Positions 10,308 through 23,200 of a DNA stretch of 23,200 nucleotides are shown in pieces (position 1 is the first letter of the stretch; each line of letters begins with the position of its first letter). Position numbers and translations under genes: made by a program. The notes beneath the pieces are model-generated. The model saw only the letters and a list, made by a program, of their open reading frames with translations. It was not told where the DNA came from and made no database searches. The stretch comes from a virus. Location: positions 1 to 23,200 of IMG/VR virus record IMGVR_UViG_3300025132_000314; one strand, written 5' to 3'.

Positions 10308-13300
10308 CTATACGAATTTTAACATACCTAAGATTTGATTTGCTGGTGCAAATGCGCCGGTATATTTATATAGTTTTCCTTTAAATACAAAAGTAATCCC
10401 TTCTGATGGTACTACTGATTTTAAACCACCAATAGCATTCAATCTATCTAGTTGAGTTTTTAATGTGTTTAATACCTTTGGATTCTTTGATTTTTTAACT
10501 TGTGAAATCGCTTTAATCAAATCTTGTCTGATTTTTTGCACAGCTTTTTTAGGATTAGCAGCTATAAAATCACTAAGATTAGAAAGTATTTCGGCTCCTA
10601 ATTCAAAGAAAAGAACTTCCCAATCTCTTATGTGTTTCTTTTGTAGTTTTGCATGATCCATTTTATCTGTTGATAATATCCAATCTAAAAACTTTGGATA
10701 TTTTTTTAAATCTTTTCTTATCTGTGGTACTTTGTAAGACTTATCAAAGAAAGCCCATCTTCTAACTAACTTTACTAAAATTCTATTATCTGGATTTTTA
10801 TAATCTGTTTGTTTAGCGCCATTATAAATGTACTCCATCCAATATGCCTGATGATATTCAGCTAATGTATTACTTCCTTTTAAATTATATTCTTTTTGCA
10901 ATTTATCCAATTTACCTAAGAAATAACTTTGTCTTTTACTGAAGTCTTTAACTTTTGGTAACTGTGATATGAAAGGTTTTTCAATTTTAAATGCTTTTTG
11001 TATGTCTTGGTTTACCTGTTTAATCATACCAGCCAACATTCTAGCACTACCTCTATCTTCTCCGATTGGTGCACCAGCAGAATCATACTCAATAGTTCCG
11101 TGAAACTGTAATAGTGATTTATCATAAGGTATGACATTTGCAGTCTTAGGATATATAACCTCTAAAGACATAAATTTTTTACCTTCATCAAATATTTTAT
11201 TTTTTTGAGCATCACTCAAACTAGCTACTGCTTTTTGTAAATCTCTCATAGCGTAAACAAATGCTTTTTCAATTTCACCCCTACCAGCAAACATATTTTT
11301 AATTCCATTTATATCCAATGCATTAGCACCATAATTTTTAATATGTCCTTTGTTACGGGCTGCGATAAGTTTTCCATTCTTCCAACTCACCATTATATTC
11401 TGACCATCTGTCTTTTCTGTAACTGCCCCCTCACTATCCAGTTTTCCCTGTAGTGTATTAATAATTAGTTTTCTAAAATCTGAAAATGTCAAATTTTTAT
11501 CATCAAATGGATGATTAAGATGTCCATATGCACCACCTTCCAATATTAGTTTGACTTCTTTATCTAAATTAAATTTTTCAAATAAGGATTCTATCTCATA
11601 AGAGTCTTCATCGGCTCCAGCTGCAAACAATGTACCTATTATATTATTTATAGCCGCTGTTGTTCCCATCCAACTAACAACTTCCCAACCCAAAGGTTTG
11701 ACAACACCATCCATCCATTTTTTATACTTAGTTACAGCTGATGTTGAACCAGCTGCTTGTCCGTGGTCTAAATAAGTCAAAGGTACTGACCTGTATTCTT
11801 TTGTTATTGAATTTTTTGCATCGTTACTCAAAACATAGTCAACAACTTTCCAACCAGCTTCTTTATAGATTGAATCTAACCATTTTTTAGAAGTTTCTTT
11901 GTATGTGTTGTAATCAGTATAGAATGTCGAAGGCCCATCATCTAAATTTCCGTTAGGTGTGGATGTAGCTTCCAGTAAAAACTCTTCAATGAGTTCATCT
12001 GATAAATCATATGATTCAAATAATTTTCTAAATTTGTTTGTCATCATATTATACACACCTTTATCGAAATAACCAAATACTTTTTTGAATCCTTTTATTC
12101 TTTCTTTTTCATCTACATTGGGATCACCTAATAGTTGTCTCATCTGTGTACCACTTACATTACCTGCTTGTGGTGCTGTGAGATAGTAGCCATGAATATC
12201 AAATCCCTCTAAATTGTTTTTGTTTTTAATAAAATCTTGATAGTAAGTTTTTCCACCACCTTTTTTAGTTCCACCTTTTAATCTACCAGCATCTTTAACA
12301 CCAAAAGCATAAACAACTGCTGTGGTATTGGGATTAAATTTTTTGAGTAGATTAGCTGCTACATATGGAGTTTTCTCTTGTATAATTCTATTTTTTGGAA
12401 TACCCATCTTAACCATATGTCGAACTTTTTCTTTGAAGTCCATTGGATGTCTTGGTGGTTGTTTTATATTAGATGTAGTTATGTAGGCTTCATCAACTCT
12501 TTTACTTAACCATTTGTAAGTAGCTAAATGTCCACTATGAAATGGTTGAAATCTACCACCAAATACTCCGATGACTTTTTTGATTTGTTTTTGTTCATTT
12601 ACTTTTTTATAACCACTACCATAAGGAACGGAAGTGTTTCCTTTCTTCTTCATCTTTTTTACCATCTTACGACTTGGTGATGGTAACATACCAGCTGGTG
12701 CTCCGAGCTCCTCATTCTTCTTTTTGGTTTTCTTCTTCATCTTATTGATGTAAGCACGGTAAACAGCAGCCTGTGATGTCTTACCCATTTCTCTAGCTCT
12801 TTGTTCCATAGCAACTGCTGCTTGTATTTTATGAGCGTGAGATTTACCACTACCTCTGATTTTACTAACCGATGCCTTAGCATCTTTGACTGTAGCAAAC
12901 TTTAATCCTTTGATTGTTCCTTTTGGATTCTCATCTGTGTATAAATCAGAGTGTGACTTTGAACCACGATGTTGTCCTTTTTTACGAGGTACTCTTGGTG
13001 CCTCATCAACACTTTTTAAAAAATCTTTATCTCTACCCATTCTGAATTTGACAACAGGCCTTCCATTTATAGTTGGCATTCCGTATTTATCTTTTCCAAT
13101 ATTTTTTACAAACACCTTTTTGTTTTTAAATCTTCCTGTTAGAATTGTATCTCCAACATTCACATCTATTTTAATTTTTTCATCTAATATCTTTTGTTTA
13201 GCTATCCACTTTTTACCTCTGAAATTCTTCACGGGTTTACGGATAAAATTACCTATACCTTTTTTAACCAACATATTGAATTTTTTTGTAGCTGCTTTTT

Positions 13301-13934
13301 CACTCAAAGTATCACTATTGTTAACCATCATAAAATTAGCATTACCGAAAAGTCCCTGAAAAACTTCTCTATTTCGTTGAACATCTCTCCAGCTTTTTTC
13401 TACTAGCTCTGGATTGAGTTTACGTGGTCTTTCCATATTTCTTTGTTGAGCTATTTCTAAATCCGTATGAACAAATACCATAAAACAATCGTAACCTATT
13501 TCTTCGAGTTCCATTTTTTGTTCTTTAATCTTATTGTATTTATGTCCTGTACCATCTATGATTAAACCTAACCTACCATCCATGTAGAGTTTCTTACGCG
13601 CAGCTGTAAGTTCTTTTGCTCTACTTCGTAATCCGCTGTAGTCTTCGTAATCAGGATCGGTTAATTGTCTGAATAGTTCTTCTGGCATATCATCTAAATC
13701 TGTACCGAATCCATACTTCTTCAACATACGAACTAATTCTTTATCTTGATTGACTAATTTCAACCCATAAGCCGATACATTTATCTTCTTAGGGATGCCA
13801 AACAATCCACTACCAACAAATCCTTTACCACTACCAGGACCGCCAGCCAAAAATACTGCTTTGAGAATACCAGGATCGTTGATTCCTTCTTCTATTAAAA
13901 AAGGTTCTGTTAAATATTTTGTAAGTTTATCCAT
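10308..13934 (-). CDS. Fused P-loop kinase, nucleotidyltransferase and RNA-ligase-like enzyme (possible polyprotein)
   Basis: 1208 residues with three recognisable catalytic domains. (1) About 25-215: P-loop kinase of the zeta-toxin/polynucleotide-kinase type, with Walker A G-G-P-G-S-G-K-G (31-38), L-I-I-D-G-T-G (124-130) and an Arg-rich lid (R-N-M-E-R-P-R-K, 165-172). (2) About 450-625: cytidylyltransferase-like fold with G-G-R-F-Q-P-F-H-S-G-H (459-469) and V-S-G-T-Q-M-R (593-599), as in NMN adenylyltransferases. (3) About 800-1208: covalent nucleotidyltransferase (RNA/DNA ligase class) with E-K-T-D-G (840-844, Lys841 the adenylation site), A-R-N-K-G-H (859-864), S-L-E-V-I-Y (923-928), S-E-G-I-T-F (1177-1182) and K-L-Y-K (1187-1190). 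Basic linkers join them, and 660-780 is an unknown internally duplicated segment. Leaders ending in LTE, LLE and ILE precede domains. No SD is seen before the ATG. RNA or nick repair is one plausible role; substrates are unknown. Confidence 0.88.
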   Translation of the reverse strand: MDKLTKYLTEPFLIEEGINDPGILKAVFLAGGPGSGKGFVGSGLFGIPKKINVSAYGLKLVNQDKELVRMLKKYGFGTDLDDMPEELFRQLTDPDYEDYSGLRSRAKELTAARKKLYMDGRLGLIIDGTGHKYNKIKEQKMELEEIGYDCFMVFVHTDLEIAQQRNMERPRKLNPELVEKSWRDVQRNREVFQGLFGNANFMMVNNSDTLSEKAATKKFNMLVKKGIGNFIRKPVKNFRGKKWIAKQKILDEKIKIDVNVGDTILTGRFKNKKVFVKNIGKDKYGMPTINGRPVVKFRMGRDKDFLKSVDEAPRVPRKKGQHRGSKSHSDLYTDENPKGTIKGLKFATVKDAKASVSKIRGSGKSHAHKIQAAVAMEQRAREMGKTSQAAVYRAYINKMKKKTKKKNEELGAPAGMLPSPSRKMVKKMKKKGNTSVPYGSGYKKVNEQKQIKKVIGVFGGRFQPFHSGHLATYKWLSKRVDEAYITTSNIKQPPRHPMDFKEKVRHMVKMGIPKNRIIQEKTPYVAANLLKKFNPNTTAVVYAFGVKDAGRLKGGTKKGGGKTYYQDFIKNKNNLEGFDIHGYYLTAPQAGNVSGTQMRQLLGDPNVDEKERIKGFKKVFGYFDKGVYNMMTNKFRKLFESYDLSDELIEEFLLEATSTPNGNLDDGPSTFYTDYNTYKETSKKWLDSIYKEAGWKVVDYVLSNDAKNSITKEYRSVPLTYLDHGQAAGSTSAVTKYKKWMDGVVKPLGWEVVSWMGTTAAINNIIGTLFAAGADEDSYEIESLFEKFNLDKEVKLILEGGAYGHLNHPFDDKNLTFSDFRKLIINTLQGKLDSEGAVTEKTDGQNIMVSWKNGKLIAARNKGHIKNYGANALDINGIKNMFAGRGEIEKAFVYAMRDLQKAVASLSDAQKNKIFDEGKKFMSLEVIYPKTANVIPYDKSLLQFHGTIEYDSAGAPIGEDRGSARMLAGMIKQVNQDIQKAFKIEKPFISQLPKVKDFSKRQSYFLGKLDKLQKEYNLKGSNTLAEYHQAYWMEYIYNGAKQTDYKNPDNRILVKLVRRWAFFDKSYKVPQIRKDLKKYPKFLDWILSTDKMDHAKLQKKHIRDWEVLFFELGAEILSNLSDFIAANPKKAVQKIRQDLIKAISQVKKSKNPKVLNTLKTQLDRLNAIGGLKSVVPSEGITFVFKGKLYKYTGAFAPANQILGMLKFV
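10363..10370 (-). promoter_or_regulatory. Possible T4-type late promoter core (TATAAATA)
   Basis: The minus strand reads TATAAATA here, correctly oriented, inside the last codons of the 1208-residue gene and about 65 nt before the zinc-ribbon gene start at 10298. It would suit a late promoter for the lysis/terminase genes. The same octamer occurs by chance inside other AT-rich coding sequence, so support is slight. Confidence 0.25.
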
Positions 13935-13966: not shown

Positions 13967-14236
13967 TTAAATACTTGAACTTGATGATACATGATTGAGA
14001 TATGAAGCCTTATGTGAATCTGTCCACAAAGCATTAGCTATCGTCTGAACATCAGTAGGCTGCTCTGCTAAACTAGCAGATGTGGCATTTGGGTACAATG
14101 TTGTTCTGTGAGTAGTATTTGCTATTTCAGCACCATCTTCGATTACCCTTACTTGTGTTCTTACTTGCAATACTTTCCAAGTATCCATTTTAACACATTC
14201 TACTTGACTTAATATTGTTTCTTTTGTTATTGCCAT
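13967..14236 (-). CDS. Small conserved protein between fibre and enzyme genes
   Basis: 89 residues, not recognised. M-A-I-T-K-E-T-I-L-S-Q-V-E opens a compact, probably beta-rich fold (W-K-V-L-Q-V-R-T-Q-V-R-V-I-E-D-G); the C-terminal part is helical (T-D-V-Q-T-I-A-N-A-L-W-T) and ends in a serine run. There is no signal peptide. The ATG has AGGAG 6 nt upstream and follows the fibre stop by 21 nt. Size and place next to a giant fibre suggest a small tail component or fibre chaperone, but that is inference only. A 32-nt AT-rich gap separates it from the next gene. Confidence 0.75.
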   Translation of the reverse strand: MAITKETILSQVECVKMDTWKVLQVRTQVRVIEDGAEIANTTHRTTLYPNATSASLAEQPTDVQTIANALWTDSHKASYLNHVSSSSSI

Positions 14237-14257: not shown

Positions 14258-17200
14258 CTATTGTACTGTGTAAGTTGCTGAAAGATATATATAAGAATTA
14301 CCACTACTGATATGATCCCACTCTAATGCTCTCCACGCAGCACCAGTAATCGATTCATAAATCAACAGTTCTGTTCCATTTGTATAAACTGTCATGTTAC
14401 CCCGACCTGCTGTAAATGTTATGGTATGGAGCATACAAGTACCAACAACATTTGCAACAGATGGTGAATATGGTAATCCGGAAATTTTTATATCGTTGCC
14501 AGAACCACCGACATCTACAATAATTTGTCTTATCTGTGCCCATACGTGAACTGAGTCACCGATTCTAATGTATCTAGCATTTGCGATTGTACCACTACCA
14601 GCGAAATTCAAAGATGGTGTCCACGTTCCTTCATCGTAGTAAGCTAGTGATTCATTACCAAATTGTATTCCACTCGTATCCGTAACAAAACCACCGTCTG
14701 CTTGAACTGCGCCAGTTGCTGTTATAGAATCAATACTACTAATATCTGTACTTCCATCGCCGACTATATTTCCATTTGCCTCTATATTTCCTGCAAATGT
14801 GGATGTTCCATCCACAACTAAATTATCAGTACCTGGATCTGTTGCACCACCTACATGAACGCCACCATATGCACCTATGTAGTTATCAACGACTAAATTA
14901 TCAGTACCTGGATCGGATGTTCCACCAACATGAATACCACCTAAAGCTGTAATATAATCACTTACCTCTACGTGAGTACCAACATAGAGATTATCAGGAG
15001 TGTAAATTCCGTAAGTATTTGATATTCCACTATGAGTACCTGAAGTTGCAAAGTATCCACCTATGAGAGTTCCGGATGTAGAAGAAGTACCATCTACTTC
15101 CCCAATCAATCCTGCAATTTTATCATTAGCTCTAAGTGAAGTACCACTACCTGACATGTGTGCTACAAATTTTCCAGCTCCAGCTAATCCAGTTCTTTGG
15201 CTATTATGTGTTAAGATACCATTGGCAAAAAATGTATGATTAACTTCTATTTCAATATCATAAGTTCTTATTTGTTCATAGTAAACTTCAGCTTTTATCA
15301 GCTTTGTTTTCCTAAGAGTTGAACCATCATTGAATAATATTTCATCTCCGATTTCTAACTGATTCCATTTTTCATTTATCCAATGATGTACCCTCTCTCC
15401 CCTTTTTGGATTCCAAGCAGTAACTCCATCTTTACCCTCAACAATAAATGGGTTAGCGATCGTTGCGTGAACAAAAGTATCGTTATCAAACCATAACTTT
15501 ACAGTTAAATCATCATCTTCTTTTAAATGTTCTTGTGTAAATAATTCTTTTACTCTTCTATTTTCTAATTTTTTTGTTAATATATTGTAAGATTGTACCA
15601 TCTCCCCTATTTTAACATCTTCTATATTTTTTTCTGTTCTATCCGACATCAAAATCTTTGTTCCAGCAATAAAACACTCAGCAGCATTGGTTGCAGCAGT
15701 CAACTGTGCTTGGGTTCTACCTGAAATTGTTCCGAGAGAAGCGCCAGTTGAAGAAGTACCAGTACCAGTATTGAAAACCGTTCTGATATCAATAAATGCA
15801 TCACTTCCAGTTATTGAAGCAAAGTTTGAACCTCCAAATATCGACCAATTGGATACGTTTCCTTGATCGGGAACAAATCCCCTTGCCATCTGTAGACCAA
15901 CTCCTGAGACATTAGTACCACCCTGATATTGGTCGTCTCTCAATATTCTAAATGCAGATGCATCTTGGTTTGATATTATTTCAATATCGGAGCCGGTTAT
16001 AGCAGTTGATGTTATTTCAAATCCACCAATTTTACCAGTTGCAGCTGTAACCTTACCAGACATAATTACATTACCATCATTCTTCAGATGAAAATTACTA
16101 GAACTTATTTCTATGTTAGTATTACTACCACTTACAAATTGAGAACTGCCACCTAAGAAAAATCTTTCTGATTTCATAAATAGAAAATCATCATTTCCTG
16201 AATATCTTATGTGAGAAGCATTTGCTTTACCTATTTGAAATCTAGCTCCGTTAAATCCTGATTCCAAGTAAAATCCATCGGTGTTACCACCATATGAAAC
16301 TCCGCTATGATTTCTTAGTATCGTGTTTATCCCGCTACTACCAGTTGTAGTTGTTATCATAAATCCTTCATATGAAGAATTTGGTTGTGCTACCACGCCA
16401 GCTTCAACACCGCCGTTATTTTGTAGGCTTGCTCTACCCATCCAAAAATCAACTCTTGCTGCACCAGATGCAGCTTTTATAGTTTGCTGTATACCAACAC
16501 CCATTGACTGGCTAAAATTAGTAACATTGATTAAGGGTAGATTGCTGTTATTTGGATATGATGGTGACAAAACCACCGATCCAGTTACAAATGGACCCAA
16601 GCCCAATAGTCCTGATGTATCATTGATAACATTTGAAAATAGAGTTGAACCAGTAATTTCAAATGAAGATATGTCACCTGATGTTGCTCTAACTTTACCT
16701 TTCATCTCCAACCCAGCAGCTGATGCCGATAGAGCGGTTGTGTTTGCATCTGTCTTTATTTCTAAAGCATCGCTTGTTATTTTTACGTGCTTAGCTGCTG
16801 TAGAACCGATGGTTGTTGTCGCTCCAAGTGAGGCTCTTATCGTATCCGTGCCACCTGAGTCTGTTATAAAATCTAATGTTGAACCATCTAGTTTTGCAAA
16901 TGAACTATCGTTTGCATCAACACCTAGTTTTAGAACATCTGAGGTTAACGAGATTTTTTCAGAATTATCTTCTTTTATGAAGACACCACTACTATTAATT
17001 TTTACTTGGTCGGTCGAACTCCCTATTATGGTTTCTGCTGCAAAAGTAGCTACTGGAGTACTAGCATCACCATCGAATACTTTCATTCCATTCGCATCTA
17101 CTGTAGCCTTATGAGTATTATCTTGAAAAATACTCACAGTACCACTGGCAATTCTAATACAATCATCCGTAGATGTTGTGGTTACAGCAGCACCAGAACT

Positions 17201-20200
17201 ACCAATTACAGTTGTAGCACCAAATATTGCTCTGACTTGACTGTTCTCAGTTAAGGTAAATCCTGAACTATCAATTACTAATTTATCTGCTGCTGATGAA
17301 GCAAGTGTGACAACACCAGTATCTATATTCAATACATTAGTTCCAGCCTCATCAAACATATCGATATCAGATGAACTAAACACAAGTCTATTTCGTGTAC
17401 CATCGTTAATAGTAATCGTTCCACCAGTTAATGTTACATCATCACCAAATGAAGCAATATCAGTAGTATTGTTTCTAATTTTAATTCCAACGTTTTCATC
17501 AATAAATACATTTCGTTTATTTGTGTCAACCTCACCCAATGTAATATCAGAGGAGAAACTTGCTAAAGTTGTTGAACTATTTTTTACTGTTAAACCTGTG
17601 CCTGATACGACTGCGTGCTGTCCAGATGTATTACCAACTGACACATCGGTGCGCGACATAGAAATCTGTCCTTCTGCATCTGAACCTATCGTTATACCGC
17701 CGGCTACGAATTTACCTTTTACGGCTGTACCCTCTTTGATTTGAAAGCCTGTTGTGTCGATGACTGCATGTGAACCTGTTGGAGAACCCAAACTTACCTT
17801 ACCAGCTCTTTGTAAATGAAATCTCGAAGAACTTATCTCTATCGAACCAGCAGCTCCACTTACGAAAGCAGTAGCTTTACTTCCTATTAAGAAATCAGAA
17901 GATGATACTATCAGTTTTGTACCATCAAACGATATCCTACTAGCAGTAGCATCACCCATCATAAATTCACCACTACCAGTTACATACATTCCTCTTCCGC
18001 TTGTTATACCTGTTGGTAAAACTTTACCGAATGACATTGAGGATTCGGTTGATGATATCTGAAAAGCGTTTGTATTTATATCAATATTTTTTGATTTAAT
18101 AGTTAGAGGTGAACCGATTCTTATTTCATTTCCATCGGTATCTCTAAGAGCAAATTGTCCTGATTCTGATACGAACATACCAGCTCCAGAATCTAATCCT
18201 GCGTTTTGCCCAAATTTTAAGAATCCAGCACCTGTTGATGTATCTATTTCAAAATCTGGTGTTTTAACTCTAAAATCACTAACTCCGATTCTAACATCAC
18301 TACCAGTTATCAGAGCTGCTGAAGCAGTCAACTTACCTTCCATATTCACATTGAATGGTGCATCAGCAAAATTAGCATGTCCTAAATGTAAACCTCTGGT
18401 TGCTATAGCTGTGGATGTCGATGCATTAACTTTGAATACTGTATTGCTACTACCAAGCAACATTGATGAATTACCCGGATTGAGTTCAAAATTTGTAGCC
18501 GATAATGTGTTAGTTCCTATATTAAATTGTCCTATTGTTCCATCTGTAGCACTAATTTTTCTAACTATCACATCACCACTTGATTTGATATGAAACTTTG
18601 ATGAACTAATTTCCAACTTACCACCACTACCACTTACAAAAGCACTACCTGTTGCTCCCATAAAAAATGATGGTGTTAGTATATTTACTGCACTTCCACT
18701 TAGTGTTGTTGTGCCTGAACTTTGTATAACCAATGAACCACCACTACCACTAATAAAGTTTCCTGCCTTACCTAATCTAAAACTTGGTGCGCCTAGTAAT
18801 ATTTCACTACCACTAGCATTAAATTTTTCAGTTTGTATATCGACATTTGTTCCGTCAAATTTTATAAATTTATTAGAACCATCTCCAGCATAAAGCTTTC
18901 CACCTCCACCACCAGCACTTACATACTCTAATTGAATACCATCTTGCCCAAAAGTTGCTTTATTTATAGCTAATTTTTTAGCAAATGAATCCATAAACAT
19001 ACCGCTAGATGATATTTGAGTGGTGTTTAATGTCCAACCACCAATTTTTCCCTCTGAAGCAACAACCGAACCACTTATCTTCATTGTATTTGTAGTAGGA
19101 TTCAGATGGAAAGCAGATGAACTAATTTCCAAACTACCACCTGAACCACTAATGAATTGTGTGTTTGAATCACCGAGTAAAAATTTTGAAGAACTAATTA
19201 TCAGATTAGTACCATCCCACTCAATTCTACCATGACCTGCTTTACCAGCTCTGAAGTGTCCACTGCCACTCATAAATACACCAGTTCCACTTGTCAAACT
19301 TTGTCCAGTAGCACTAGCACCCAATACAATCTTAGCAGGAGAGCTATTGATAACAAGAGTAGAACCAGCAACCAAATCAAATACTGTTGATTTCATCTGT
19401 ATGGTAGTTCCATTGAAGTAAATAAAATTATCACCACTTCCCTGATCTTCACCGACTCTAAAGTTACCAGCACCATCCATATAGACACCTGTATTGTCTG
19501 TGGCGTTTATGGAAGAAGCATTTGTACCCAATACCAATTTTGGTGTGGTGTTTTCTAATATGAGTGTTGTTCCACCCTTTAAATCAAATGTTTCGGATTT
19601 TATTGTTAGGGATGAACCTGACTGATGTATAAAATTGTTACCATCCCCTTCCACACCGGTTCTGAAATGTCCGTTGGTGTACCAAAAATTATTATTATTT
19701 ACATAGATTCCGTCAAGTGTGTTGTTAACATTAGTACCTAACTTAATCTGATTTGAATTATCGGTTTTTATATGTACTATTCCTGTAAACGAACCTGTTG
19801 TAGCGGTTATAGCACCTTGTAGGAATACGTTTTCTGTGAATAAACCAAAACCAGGTGATGCGTTTCCAAACAATAAACCACTACTCAATCCACTCAAATC
19901 ACCCAATCTAGCTTTCAGAGCAACATCGTAAACACCACTACCGGTTCTTTCAACGATATCGATATAAGGTGTTGTTGTATCGTTTGGATTTGCATTCAAT
20001 CTTATGAAACCACTACCACTTACTCCTGTTGATACTATAACCTGACCTGGTTCGAAAGATTGTGAAATGTTTGAGGAATCTCCTAAAGAGCCAGATGAAC
20101 CAGCACTACCACTTTGATAACCTCTAACGACATAAAGTTTTCCACTAAAATCAGTTTCGCTTGATGGTACATCTCTTGATGCACTTTCAACCAACATATA

Positions 20201-23200
20201 CTCAGTAGCAAATCCTGTGCTACCGACTTTTTTAGCAGATAATATTTCATTAGCTGAGAACCCACTTACATTCACAACACTCATAGTTGTTGCTGTAGCG
20301 GCTAAAGTTGATGAACCTGTGAGAGCAGTTGAGTTAGCGATATATAATTGTCCACCTACTGCATTTACGGTTTCCTTTTCAAAAACCGCAGTAGATAGAG
20401 TTCCTCTGATTCTTATGTTCTCAAATTCAGCCTCACCATTGTTGGCCGCTGAAATTCTCCAACCTTTTACATTACTGGCAAAATCAGATGATTGAATTGT
20501 ACCTGATGAATCGATAACTAAATTGTTACTTGTAATTTGAGTTGTGCTTAGTGACCAACTAGCTATCTGATTTTTCGCATCACTAAAGTGAACTATCTCA
20601 TCAGAAGCAGAAGTTCCGGTTCCATCGAATATCACTAAACCAAAATGATCGGCTGCAGTAGAGTCAACTTCACCTATTCTGACTCTTACTCTGTTCGGTG
20701 TTACTGTAACATTTGATATGTAAATTTTATCACCTACGTGTATACCACCTGCAGAGTAACTAAATGATGTATCATCTGTCGGATAGAACCTTACTTGAAT
20801 TGTTGAAGATCCTGCAGTAAGTGTATGTTCTACTGTAGTCCAAGTTCCTACTACCCCATCATCATATGTACCAGCCCCTACATCACTACTATCACCTACA
20901 GCAAATCTAAATCCATTGACACCACTATTTGCACCACCTGTTGAACCAGCATCAGGAATTAAGTAAGTTACTGAAATTGTATAACTCTCACCAGAGGTTA
21001 CTGAAACATTTCTATATGAGTGTGGAGCTACAAGATTTCCATCTTGAATCATCATCCTATAAACATTATTCTTTGTGGTAGATCCATCAGTCACATTATC
21101 TTGATTTCCTGCATGTTCTAACCCAGTAACCCAACCATCAACACCACTAGACCAATCAGATTGATAGGAAACACTACCTGAAGTAAGAACCTCTATTCTA
21201 GCAGTCGATGAATCAATATCTAACTTTGTCGTATCTAATTTGAATGTTTCGGTTCTTATATCGAAAGCAGAACCATTAAACGATATATAGTTACTTGCAT
21301 TGGCAGCTAATTCAAACTTCGTAGTTCCATTATCAGTTCCTAATATCAAACCAGCAGTAGATTGGTCGAATTGTGTAAAATTGCTTTTACCAATCGCCAT
21401 AAATCTGTCCGATCCGTCATCACTTAGTGTTATTGAGTTAGAAGCCCCAATAGTAATTGTAGATGTTGAACCACCTACAAGTCTTATCTTACCCTCACCT
21501 AAACTCATAGATTTTTGTGCGGATGAAATTTCTAAATCTGTAGCGTCTAATTCAAACTTTTCAGATTTTATATCCACATCAGAACCATCAAATTTTATAT
21601 GTTTGTTAGAACCATCACCGGCGTAGAATCTTCCTGTATTATTACTACTATTATATTGTAGTTGGATGCCAGATTGTCCGTATGTATGGTTCTTAATCGA
21701 TATCGATTGATTCGAACTATCTAATCTTATTTCATCTGAACTATCTGCTAATCTATTTGCTGACAATACCCAACCACCTATAGAACCAGCAGCCGCAGTA
21801 ACTGTTCCACTCATGATTGTAGAACCATCAGGTTTAATCTGAAACTTAGATGAACTTATTTGTAAACCACCATTTGAAGCACTTATGTAAGCACTACCAG
21901 TAGCACCTACAAAGAACTTAGAAGAACTCATAGTGAGATTTACACCATCGAATTGTATTCTCGATCCTGTTGAACTTCCTATTAATGCTTTTCCTGTTCC
22001 ATCGAAATAAACACCATTACCACTATTATGCGCAGTCGGTGGTGTTGCTCCAAGTGCTACTTTTCCACTATTTGTTGCACTATCTAATATTATTGTAGTT
22101 GCGTCTAAATCAAAGGTTGCTGCTTTTATCTCAATACCACCATCTCCGGTAATCTTTAAAAAATTATTACTAGCAGTATTACCTTTTATTAATACATTAC
22201 CATCGGTGTCAGCAAAGAAACCACTATTTGTATTGCCTATAGTTGTAGCATTACTCAATGAACCGACTTTGATTGAACCACCAGAATTCAATACCACACT
22301 GCCGCCTGATAAAGTTGATGAACCTATTGTCCAACCACCAACCGTACCACCAGATGCTTTAATTTCACCCGACATTGTTACATCACCACCAGCCGTTAGA
22401 TGAAAATTGGAACTACTTATTTCAATATTACCATTTGAACCACTTACAAATTGATTAGTTTTTTTACCTAAGAAAAATTTTGGTGTTTCCAATGTAATTT
22501 CACTACCACTAATAGTAGCTCTTACAGTTTGAATATTTACACCATTACTCGTATCATATCTTAAAAAGTTATTTCCACCATTACCAGCATAGAATCTTGG
22601 ATTCCCACTATTGAAACCAAATTGTATTCCTTCACTTGCGAAAGTATGAGAGTTTACGGATATTTCTGCACTATTTCCATTTCCATTAAGTCTAATTCCA
22701 CCGCCTGTGCTCGATATATTATTACCACTTATATTCCATGCAGCAATTTTACCACCCGTGAGTAATGCATTCGAACCTGTTATCTGCCCACTTGACTTCA
22801 ATCTTAGATTGTTACCACTATCCTTTATCTCATCTGAGGTTATATCGAAACCACCAATAGAAGCTGATACAGTTGTGAGTAAACCTGTAGATGTTATTGA
22901 TGAACTTGGAGTAGTAGCAGCTGATGGAACTGCGATACTATCAGCAGTAATAGCACCTTGAACTGTTAGTGTATTTCCAACAAATTGTAAGAACTGACCA
23001 GATGCTTTATTACCTAACAATATTGCTGAACCTGTAACATCACCTTGTCTGGTCAGATGAAATTTGGATGAACTTATCTCTATGTTTCCATTAGAACCAC
23101 TAATAAAGTTTGTAGAAGCTTTACCTAAAAAGAATCTTGGTGACTCTAATCGAATTGAACTACCACTTATAACCGCTGTGTTAGTACTTATATCAATAGT
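14258..23200 (-). CDS. Giant repetitive tail fibre/adhesin with embedded mini-intein (5' end outside window)
   Basis: The frame is open from the last base of the window to the TAG at 14258: at least 2980 residues with no visible start, so the N-terminus is missing. The sequence is rich in G, S, T, N and beta strands. Seven copies of a module with core F-V-S-G-S-x-G-x-I-E-I-S-S-S-x-F-H-L are followed by lines such as M-S-G-x-I-T-A and I-G-G-W-x-I. About 20710-21180 encodes a carbohydrate-binding-like beta-sandwich, and about 16750-17760 a ladder of short I-G-S-S repeats. An intein lies at 15203-15676. The C-terminus (from about 14645) holds D-E-G-T-W-T-P-S-L and Y-I-R-I-G-D-S-V-H-V-W, typical of phage fibre tips. 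I infer a host-recognition fibre on the virion tail. No intramolecular chaperone domain is seen at the end. Confidence 0.88.
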   Translation of the reverse strand, partial: TIDISTNTAVISGSSIRLESPRFFLGKASTNFISGSNGNIEISSSKFHLTRQGDVTGSAILLGNKASGQFLQFVGNTLTVQGAITADSIAVPSAATTPSSSITSTGLLTTVSASIGGFDITSDEIKDSGNNLRLKSSGQITGSNALLTGGKIAAWNISGNNISSTGGGIRLNGNGNSAEISVNSHTFASEGIQFGFNSGNPRFYAGNGGNNFLRYDTSNGVNIQTVRATISGSEITLETPKFFLGKKTNQFVSGSNGNIEISSSNFHLTAGGDVTMSGEIKASGGTVGGWTIGSSTLSGGSVVLNSGGSIKVGSLSNATTIGNTNSGFFADTDGNVLIKGNTASNNFLKITGDGGIEIKAATFDLDATTIILDSATNSGKVALGATPPTAHNSGNGVYFDGTGKALIGSSTGSRIQFDGVNLTMSSSKFFVGATGSAYISASNGGLQISSSKFQIKPDGSTIMSGTVTAAAGSIGGWVLSANRLADSSDEIRLDSSNQSISIKNHTYGQSGIQLQYNSSNNTGRFYAGDGSNKHIKFDGSDVDIKSEKFELDATDLEISSAQKSMSLGEGKIRLVGGSTSTITIGASNSITLSDDGSDRFMAIGKSNFTQFDQSTAGLILGTDNGTTKFELAANASNYISFNGSAFDIRTETFKLDTTKLDIDSSTARIEVLTSGSVSYQSDWSSGVDGWVTGLEHAGNQDNVTDGSTTKNNVYRMMIQDGNLVAPHSYRNVSVTSGESYTISVTYLIPDAGSTGGANSGVNGFRFAVGDSSDVGAGTYDDGVVGTWTTVEHTLTAGSSTIQVRFYPTDDTSFSYSAGGIHVGDKIYISNVTVTPNRVRVRIGEVDSTAADHFGLVIFDGTGTSASDEIVHFSDAKNQIASWSLSTTQITSNNLVIDSSGTIQSSDFASNVKGWRISAANNGEAEFENIRIRGTLSTAVFEKETVNAVGGQLYIANSTALTGSSTLAATATTMSVVNVSGFSANEILSAKKVGSTGFATEYMLVESASRDVPSSETDFSGKLYVVRGYQSGSAGSSGSLGDSSNISQSFEPGQVIVSTGVSGSGFIRLNANPNDTTTPYIDIVERTGSGVYDVALKARLGDLSGLSSGLLFGNASPGFGLFTENVFLQGAITATTGSFTGIVHIKTDNSNQIKLGTNVNNTLDGIYVNNNNFWYTNGHFRTGVEGDGNNFIHQSGSSLTIKSETFDLKGGTTLILENTTPKLVLGTNASSINATDNTGVYMDGAGNFRVGEDQGSGDNFIYFNGTTIQMKSTVFDLVAGSTLVINSSPAKIVLGASATGQSLTSGTGVFMSGSGHFRAGKAGHGRIEWDGTNLIISSSKFLLGDSNTQFISGSGGSLEISSSAFHLNPTTNTMKISGSVVASEGKIGGWTLNTTQISSSGMFMDSFAKKLAINKATFGQDGIQLEYVSAGGGGGKLYAGDGSNKFIKFDGTNVDIQTEKFNASGSEILLGAPSFRLGKAGNFISGSGGSLVIQSSGTTTLSGSAVNILTPSFFMGATGSAFVSGSGGKLEISSSKFHIKSSGDVIVRKISATDGTIGQFNIGTNTLSATNFELNPGNSSMLLGSSNTVFKVNASTSTAIATRGLHLGHANFADAPFNVNMEGKLTASAALITGSDVRIGVSDFRVKTPDFEIDTSTGAGFLKFGQNAGLDSGAGMFVSESGQFALRDTDGNEIRIGSPLTIKSKNIDINTNAFQISSTESSMSFGKVLPTGITSGRGMYVTGSGEFMMGDATASRISFDGTKLIVSSSDFLIGSKATAFVSGAAGSIEISSSRFHLQRAGKVSLGSPTGSHAVIDTTGFQIKEGTAVKGKFVAGGITIGSDAEGQISMSRTDVSVGNTSGQHAVVSGTGLTVKNSSTTLASFSSDITLGEVDTNKRNVFIDENVGIKIRNNTTDIASFGDDVTLTGGTITINDGTRNRLVFSSSDIDMFDEAGTNVLNIDTGVVTLASSAADKLVIDSSGFTLTENSQVRAIFGATTVIGSSGAAVTTTSTDDCIRIASGTVSIFQDNTHKATVDANGMKVFDGDASTPVATFAAETIIGSSTDQVKINSSGVFIKEDNSEKISLTSDVLKLGVDANDSSFAKLDGSTLDFITDSGGTDTIRASLGATTTIGSTAAKHVKITSDALEIKTDANTTALSASAAGLEMKGKVRATSGDISSFEITGSTLFSNVINDTSGLLGLGPFVTGSVVLSPSYPNNSNLPLINVTNFSQSMGVGIQQTIKAASGAARVDFWMGRASLQNNGGVEAGVVAQPNSSYEGFMITTTTGSSGINTILRNHSGVSYGGNTDGFYLESGFNGARFQIGKANASHIRYSGNDDFLFMKSERFFLGGSSQFVSGSNTNIEISSSNFHLKNDGNVIMSGKVTAATGKIGGFEITSTAITGSDIEIISNQDASAFRILRDDQYQGGTNVSGVGLQMARGFVPDQGNVSNWSIFGGSNFASITGSDAFIDIRTVFNTGTGTSSTGASLGTISGRTQAQLTAATNAAECFIAGTKILMSDRTEKNIEDVKIGEMVQSYNILTKKLENRRVKELFTQEHLKEDDDLTVKLWFDNDTFVHATIANPFIVEGKDGVTAWNPKRGERVHHWINEKWNQLEIGDEILFNDGSTLRKTKLIKAEVYYEQIRTYDIEIEVNHTFFANGILTHNSQRTGLAGAGKFVAHMSGSGTSLRANDKIAGLIGEVDGTSSTSGTLIGGYFATSGTHSGISNTYGIYTPDNLYVGTHVEVSDYITALGGIHVGGTSDPGTDNLVVDNYIGAYGGVHVGGATDPGTDNLVVDGTSTFAGNIEANGNIVGDGSTDISSIDSITATGAVQADGGFVTDTSGIQFGNESLAYYDEGTWTPSLNFAGSGTIANARYIRIGDSVHVWAQIRQIIVDVGGSGNDIKISGLPYSPSVANVVGTCMLHTITFTAGRGNMTVYTNGTELLIYESITGAAWRALEWDHISSGNSYIYLSATYTVQ
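14817..14914 (-). repeat. Tandem 75-bp repeat in the fibre C-terminal part
   Basis: The 23-base segment at 14817-14839 recurs identically at 14892-14914, exactly 75 bp apart. At protein level this is G-G-(I/V)-H-V-G-G-x-x-D-P-G-T-D-N-L-V-V-D twice in a row. It lies just downstream of the intein and is a recent in-frame duplication within the fibre shaft. Confidence 0.8.
15203..15676 (-). other. Mini-intein (Hint domain) inside the fibre gene
   Basis: 158 in-frame residues with intein landmarks. Cys1 begins block A (C-F-I-A-G-T-K-I-L-M); T72 in A-T-I-A-N-P-F marks block B; block F is Y-D-I-E-I-E-V-N-H-T-F-F-A-N-G; block G ends G-I-L-T-H-N with Asn158, followed by Ser as the +1 residue. Splicing would join A-A-E to S-Q-R-T-G. 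The block B histidine (TxxH) is replaced by Asn75, which may slow the first acyl shift. No homing-endonuclease domain is present, so it is not self-mobile now. The domain could splice, or act as an autocleaving Hint that separates the fibre shaft from its tip. Confidence 0.9.
16085..23107 (-). repeat. Seven copies of an 18-residue fibre repeat core
   Basis: Cores of the form F-V-S-G-S-x-G-x-I-E-I-S-S-S-x-F-H-L are encoded at 23054-23107, 22397-22450, 21836-21889, 19103-19156, 18587-18640, 17813-17866 and 16085-16138. Each is usually preceded by a L-G-x-x-x line and followed by a M-S-G-x-(I/V)-x-A line and I-G-G-(W/F). Spacing is uneven (about 0.5 to 2.7 kb) because other modules are inserted, especially between the third and fourth and between the sixth and seventh copies. 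Confidence 0.85.

Follow-up and report, generated by a model that had tools for sequence, protein, structure and literature searches.

The window, that is, the whole stretch of DNA analysed here, is a 23,200-base virus record of IMG/VR (IMGVR_UViG_3300025132_000314) with a T4-like gene neighbourhood (Table 1). It encodes a portal protein matching gp20 (PF07230, E = 2e-73), a prohead protease (PF03420) and the large subunit of the terminase, whose nearest named relatives belong to Microcystis phage Mel-JY01 (56%) and to the Flavobacterium phages vB_FspM_immuto (54%). The giant tail-fibre gene of the window gave no fibre match of its own in PHROG or Pfam; its homologue at locus L029 matches many PHROG families of tail-fibre and baseplate proteins. 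Between fibre and terminase lies a gene for a protein of 1208 residues, one part of which matches zeta-toxin-type/AAA kinases and another part cytidylyltransferases. Matches to this protein (53-83% identity) were found upstream of the terminase at 11 of the 11 loci examined, split into two frames in L046 and, in L111, on a sequence without terminase. The small gene directly after the fibre (89 residues) matches phrog_6228, a family of unknown function, and has no homologue at E ≤ 1e-3 in 96 loci besides the window's own copy.

Table 1. Features of the window, with positions counted from its first base.
Feature	Position	Strand	Basis
ORF of the giant tail fibre (2980 aa), continuing past the window edge on its 5' side	14258..23200	-	Open frame; IMG/VR contigs with stretches homologous to shaft and tip
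N-extein side (final 130 shaft residues)	15677..16066	-	Homology to fibres L110, L111 and L112, except for the variable linker adjoining the Hint
Glu(-1) codon, GAG	15677..15679	-	Codon reading
Intein-like Hint domain of 158 aa (residues 2509-2666 of the fibre)	15203..15676	-	Translation, models, predicted fold
Cys1 codon, TGT	15674..15676	-	Translation
Block B Thr72	15461..15463	-	Alignment
Block B Asn75 (B:10), replacing the usual His	15452..15454	-	Alignment
Block F Asp140 (F:4)	15257..15259	-	Alignment
Block F His147	15236..15238	-	Alignment
Terminal His157-Asn158, CATAAT	15203..15208	-	Translation
Ser+1 codon (AGC), which may supply the splicing nucleophile; AAA (Lys) in homologous fibres	15200..15202	-	Codon reading
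C-extein side, 314-aa tip	14258..15202	-	First ~75 aa homologous to L110 and L112, remainder different
89-aa gene directly after the fibre	13967..14236	-	
1208-aa protein gene	10308..13934	-	

A sequence-only reading of the window had placed a 158-residue Hint domain in frame inside the fibre. Its coordinates were right, and the domain lies on the minus strand, where 158 uninterrupted codons in frame with the fibre encode CFIAGTKIL...FFANGILTHN; the plus strand of the same segment contains many stops. The domain follows ...TAATNAAE and is followed by SQRTGLAGAGKF... on its C-terminal side. Its length leaves no room for a homing endonuclease. The Hint DNA has a G+C content of 29.5% against 37.4% in the rest of the fibre gene, and none of 267 overlapping blocks of equal size is as low; such AT-richness would fit a later acquisition of the domain, of which it is no proof.

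Several lines of evidence identify the fold. The model TIGR01443 (intein_Cterm) passed its cut-off on the fibre Hint (28.4 bits, cut-off 15.6), and the Pfam Hint/intein models stayed under theirs (PF05203, 30.3 of 32.1; PF07591, 23.5 of 27.7; PF14890, 20.6 of 35.8). The Hedgehog model PF01079 was not among the window's matches at E ≤ 0.01, and 314 residues come after the Hint. An HMM built from 79 other Hints, the window excluded, recovered the fibre at E = 5e-41. The structure predicted by AlphaFold2 from 52 aligned sequences shows a Hint fold over the whole domain (pLDDT 95.9, pTM 0.89); a prediction of the Hint together with its fibre flanks, from 4 sequences, reached a pLDDT of 30 and was not used. 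Foldseek and VIA-align placed the BIL2 domain of Tetrahymena BUBL1 first (E = 3e-12; Z = 22.5), spanning residues 1-158, as did phmmer, in which BIL2 entries likewise rank first; the next PDB matches by Z were gp41-1 (19.0), the BIL domain of C. thermocellum (2lwy, 18.8) and Mtu RecA (18.7), with DnaB also among them. By its sequence and its predicted structure, the window domain is a real and complete Hint domain. A chance or assembly artefact was ruled out, as the open reading frame is continuous, a Hint stands at the equivalent fibre position in three further contigs (fibres L110, L111 and L112), and none of 500 residue-shuffled copies of the fibre scored at E ≤ 10 with the HMM.

Cys1, a block F histidine, a terminal His-Asn pair and Ser+1 had all been proposed for this domain, and each of them is confirmed in translation and alignment. 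The roles of the block B and block F residues were assigned by alignment, spacing and the cited reviews. On these grounds the domain has the Cys1, His157-Asn158, Ser+1 and block F Asp and His of class 1 inteins and departs from them in block B, where this class has Thr and His: Thr72 is present and the motif reads T72-I-A-N75-P. It shares with class 1 mini-inteins (gp41-1, the splicing domain of Mtu RecA, Ssp/Npu DnaB) the Hint fold (Z 18.0-19.0), Cys1, the block F Asp, the His-Asn end and the lack of room for an endonuclease, and with Ssp DnaB also Ser+1 (PMC6333167). It differs from them in the Asn that replaces the block B His, in an acidic -1 residue found across hosts and in residing in a fibre. 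In a review from 2014 (PMC4031507), the block B His is described as the most conserved residue of inteins and Asp as the commonest residue at F:4, and two inteins lacking this His are mentioned as known at the time, one being a pseudogene and the other Thermococcus kodakaraensis CDC21-1, with a compensating lysine. CDC21-1 is thus, like the window domain, a natural intein-type domain without His at B:10, and as it does activate its N-terminal junction, this His does not strictly define class 1; its Lys58 compensates and its -1 residue is Leu, whereas the clade of the window has Asn at B:10 and Glu or Asp at -1 (PMC4031507, PMC6333167). According to a study from 2018, bulky -1 extein residues can offset the removal of the block B His (PMC6333167).

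Among the matches listed (the 80 best from each of two sets, of 160 and 165), the Hints closest to that of the window are 47-54% identical to it. They belong to environmental viruses and occur in different proteins, several of which are giant; the gene of one of them (L100) lies downstream of baseplate wedge genes. A Hint tree was built from 80 rows thinned from 129 (149 columns, 'quick' search) and has many weak forks. Rows from viral loci were admitted only if they were full length, began with Cys and ended in His-Asn, with 26 of 153 stretches lost to the length rule; the invariance of Cys1 and His-Asn among them is therefore by construction. Before this filter, Cys was the first residue in 64 of 66 clusters (by representative) and His-Asn was present in 64 of 66. 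The window belongs to a clade of seven rows with an SH-aLRT support of 98 (99 with six long branches left out), all with Ser+1. The block F Asp is present in all seven, against two of the 73 other rows, and in one of the seven other rows that have a +1 nucleophile. A histidine located 22 residues past B:10 (His97) is found in six rows of the clade.

Besides the window, these relatives occupy five host contexts (L097; L098/L100/L106/L187; L103; L185; L186). The exteins of the window did not match those of the five contexts at E ≤ 1e-5, a comparison that is weak for the short exteins of L103 and L186, and the only homology among the exteins of the five contexts at the same threshold is a stretch of 117-119 residues shared by the N-terminal side of L097 and the C-terminal side of L106/L187. 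A search for a Hint-free version of the host protein of L098/L108 returned only these two occupied contigs. The L186 protein (L186:2783-4216, IMG/VR 3300020470_003482) has 477 residues and a tail sheath gene nearby; its window-type Hint ends in HN followed by SGGGGG and directly precedes a Hedgehog-type Hint module (PF01079, E = 7e-33).

Ser+1 is encoded by AGC in the window and by TCN in each of the eight relatives that were checked, so that the serine has been kept across the gap between two codon families. All 28 pairs that can be formed from these eight relatives have a dN/dS ratio of 0.09-0.30; pairs with the window give 0.20-0.24, at saturated dS. Taken together, Ser+1, the block F Asp and the low dN/dS can be read as selection for splicing chemistry, which looks maintained. 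The same values argue against a decaying or inert intein, in which an element that once spliced would survive as an inactive insertion within a flexible loop. Such decay would account for the lost block B His, which has the pseudogene of the 2014 review (PMC4031507) as a partial precedent, and for the AT-rich DNA; with the remaining catalytic residues intact and the Asn form of block B common to nine rows of the tree, we consider it very improbable.

These nine rows, in which block B reads Thr-x-x-Asn, are the seven Ser+1 rows plus two with Lys+1, namely L107 and the homologous fibre L110. Glu or Asp occupies position -1 in all nine; among rows with His at B:10, the -1 residue is acidic in one of 67 viral and control rows and in three of 70 rows from prokaryotic contigs. 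This tally was made after the pattern had been noticed, and hence is not a test, and four control rows lacking a recorded -1 residue were excluded from it. The nine rows probably form one clade, to judge from the tree: when they were constrained together the score was better than in the free search, and the corresponding branch had a support of 74 in the reduced tree. As a single clade, they would represent one inherited combination of Asn B:10 and acidic -1 rather than repeated, independent co-change. The conservation of an extein residue across different host proteins suggests that it has a role, and Glu/Asp(-1) is a candidate for the group that compensates for the lost block B His. Given that L110 and L107 have Lys+1, this combination does not by itself imply splicing.

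When the Hint, the sequences flanking it and the terminase were used as queries, three contigs carrying a homologous fibre were recovered: IMG/VR 3300020421_000051 (L032, L110, L177), 3300030376_006036 (L111, L178) and 3300025151_004228 (L029, L112, L179). The terminases of L032 and L029 are 88-89% identical to that of the window. A block preceding the Hint (FASITxSxAF...) is common to the window and the three fibres (45-52% identity where it aligns). Homology resumes after the Hint for about 75 residues of alignment (37-38% identity), beyond which the tips diverge from that of the window. The C-terminal ends of the homologous fibres presumably correspond to an S74-type chaperone. All three fibres have a Hint at the equivalent site, 35-36% identical to that of the window. 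Loss of Cys1 or Asn158 in such fibres had been named beforehand as an outcome that would speak against the intein proposal; Cys1 and His-Asn are kept in all three, but position +1 is Lys. The fibre homologues differ in both the sequence and the length of the linker that precedes the Hint. In the first tree, the Lys+1 Hint of L110 stood apart from the window, and a topology forcing the two together was not rejected (p-AU 0.51; 0.76 in the reduced tree); we therefore do not argue for two separate colonisations of the fibre site, and leave the relative age of Ser+1 and Lys+1 aside.

The Lys+1 fibres recall the bacterial intein-like (A-type BIL) domains, which share with the window Hint the fold, the His-Asn end and a variable linker ahead of the domain, a feature described for BIL domains (PMC7765530). 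A-type BIL domains are located in variable regions of non-conserved proteins; here the linker varies and the flanking fibre blocks are conserved. They have no +1 nucleophile (PMC7664689), a definition that fits L110, L111 and L112 better than the window with its Ser+1. A rival explanation for the window Hint is BIL-like maturation, in which it would cut at one or both of its ends without ligation, leaving the tip free or non-covalently bound, Ser+1 being incidental or the source of minor splicing. Several observations agree with such autocleavage: the retention of Cys1 and His-Asn next to Lys+1 in the three homologous fibres, the loss of the block B His in the window, and the predominantly cleaved products obtained from BIL domains (PMC7664689). 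In the L110/L112 pair, dN/dS is 0.14 for the Hint and 0.48 and 0.59 for the flanks; this Hint is more constrained than its surroundings, and the Lys+1 form thus seems to be under selection itself. Autocleavage needs neither Ser+1 nor the block F Asp, yet both are kept throughout the seven-row clade, in different hosts and across a switch of codon family. We regard autocleavage without ligation as the main rival of splicing for the window Hint, possible but less probable; against splicing we count the Asn in block B, the Lys+1 of the homologous fibres and the BIL-like linker. The earlier proposal of splicing or cleavage is supported in part: the nearest kin, with Ser+1 and block F Asp, speak for splicing chemistry, and the homologous fibres speak against splicing as the conserved function. 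The property shared by the Hints of the fibre site would be cleavage (or ligation without a +1 nucleophile) rather than splicing.

The Hint is not universal at the fibre locus. At seven of 11 chosen loci, sequence upstream of the gene for the 1208-residue protein matched the fibre, three with a Hint (L032, L029, L111) and four without (L025, L027, L037, L046, the first two apparently near-identical). Whole-record searches found a Hint in two of eight records (those of L032 and L111), which may be fragments. The Hint-free fibres have ends different from that of the window fibre. Searches for an empty site gave no match for the joined flanks of the window fibre in named phages and, in viral contigs, only the three occupied ones; the joined flanks of L110 gave 20 records of named phages, whose E values were no better than 0.1 and whose coverage stayed below 80%. 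The sequence-only reading had suggested checking close relatives for the same fibre without the insert; Hint-free fibres exist at the locus, but none of those found has the same flanks. The classical proof of an intein, an intein-free allele, was accordingly missing for the window fibre among viral contigs and named phages, since no fibre combined the same flanks with the absence of the insert.

In the viral loci fetched (L001-L179 and the window), 153 Hint stretches occur in 97 ORFs, 37 of which have two to four Hints; these totals include the window twice (as the window and as L008), overlapping stretches and near-identical contigs. Several proteins carry Hints in tandem. In L118-L122 (near-identical contigs), a viral protein of 925 residues has three intact tandem Hints, preceded in L121 by what appears by eye to be a degenerate fourth one without Cys1; a contig of a Thermoplasmata archaeon MAG (L202) encodes nine tandem Hints in one frame of 2175 residues, seven of them ending in HN followed by T, and a Nanoarchaeota MAG contig (L213) has four Hints ending in HN followed by K. 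Viral proteins terminating one residue past a Hint, in His-Asn-Lys-stop, were noted at 14 of the 89 loci listed (L114, L115, L117-L122, L126, L129, L133, L137, L141 and L171).

Of 66 full-length Hint clusters, 38 have Lys at +1, 10 have Arg, four have Ser or Thr and 12 have some other residue, while the remaining two lack His-Asn; these counts derive from the 80 best matches out of 160, and out of 165, confirmed ones, ranked by likeness to queries that include Lys+1 and Ser+1 members, and are not a census. In 70 Hints with His-Asn from prokaryotic contigs, obtained with another query, +1 is Thr in 20, Ser in 14 and Lys in 12, so that it is the viral sample that shows the stronger preference for Lys or Arg at +1. 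Members of the family with Lys or Arg at +1 should mainly cleave, and their prevalence (48 of the 66 clusters, among the matches listed) adds to the case for autocleavage. A basic +1 residue also raises the idea of amine ligation, in which the Cys1 thioester would be attacked by a lysine or a free N-terminus, and an isopeptide bond would cross-link a fibre chain with itself or with another. The best PDB match by both sequence and fold, BUBL1 BIL2, is reported to form a lysine isopeptide bond (PMC8616854), and Lys+1 is kept even as the last residue of the protein, 12 of the 66 clusters ending Hint-Lys-stop. BIL2 is, unlike the window Hint, eukaryotic and situated between ubiquitin-like domains (PMC8616854), and likeness of fold shows no function; the +1 residue of the window is Ser instead of Lys, and no lysine acceptor was identified. 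Amine ligation would suit the Lys+1 homologues better, and for the window we judge it very improbable.

Host proteins could be named for a minority of the viral Hints. The best full-length matches in named phages are helicase-type inteins of Vibrio phages (up to 31% identity), annotated as DNA helicase or hypothetical protein; the two that we checked have the block B His and Cys+1, unlike the Asn and Ser+1 of the window. Many matches in named phages are annotated as helicase, recombination protein or terminase, and the sequence-only reading had considered a structural protein an unusual host. This view calls for revision, because structural hosts recur. In L001-L006 the Hint lies inside a Gly/Arg/Lys-rich linker of a cyanophage structural protein (DUF4815/phrog_358), another host is a tail protein (phrog_2048, with the baseplate-hub model PF09931 just under its cut-off), and in four named Ruegeria phages, represented by eight records, an intein-like domain with Cys1, His-His-Asn and Thr+1 interrupts the tape-measure protein. 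In Ruegeria phage vB_RpoS-V18 this domain is located at L182:2501-2917, within the annotated tape-measure protein. The DUF4815 proteins of Prochlorococcus phage P-TIM68 and Synechococcus phage S-SSM7, the two that were aligned, have neither Hint nor linker; the arrangement in this protein therefore looks like the insertion of a module rather than like a clean intein site. One paper (PMC7468147) describes an intein in a minor head protein and lists 0 inteins among its 36 variable tail-fibre/collar/protein genes. We found no report of a tail-fibre intein in the literature searched, partly seen as excerpts, which does not prove its absence from print.

Weighing these data, we moderately favour the view that the window Hint is a splicing-competent mini-intein of class 1 type, belonging to a variant clade with Asn B:10 and an acidic -1 residue and residing in a fibre precursor. 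Splicing as such, and the predominance of ligation over cleavage, are inferences from these data. In the proposed pathway, the acyl group of Glu(-1) would move onto Cys1 as a thioester, which would then be attacked by Ser+1; cyclisation of Asn158, assisted by His157, would follow, the shaft (...AAE) being joined to the tip (SQR...) and the 158-residue domain released. The N-terminal step would have to be activated without the block B His, and the acidic -1 residue is a candidate for this compensation. The window allele would then be a splicing form of a domain that, among the fibres occupied at this site, has self-cleavage as its shared property, and splicing and cleavage states of this site may both exist in nature. 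That one gene yields two forms of the fibre, or that attachment of the tip is regulated, as the sequence-only reading had imagined, is speculation.

On a broader scale, we put forward, as a rather unlikely scenario in its entirety, that this Hint family consists of processing devices built into virion proteins of environmental phages. Most members, with Lys or Arg at +1, often in tandem and often with Lys as the last residue, would cut or ligate to amines, and the Asn-B:10 clade, with an acidic -1 residue as a new means of activating the first step, would have kept or regained splicing through Ser+1, both states being found at one fibre site. If true, nature would offer here a parallel to laboratory work in which single changes turned BIL domains into efficient splicers (PMC7664689). 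The many viral Hints with Lys or Arg at +1, some in tandem arrays, form a larger pattern. If the window Hint does splice, it would be a tail-fibre intein working without the most conserved catalytic residue of inteins, with an extein residue as the likely substitute, and would provide a testable case of co-adaptation between extein and intein. The presence of Ser+1 here and of Lys+1 in related phages, at the same site of the fibre, would then make splicing and cleavage comparable in a similar host protein, and would allow one to ask what self-processing does for a tail fibre.
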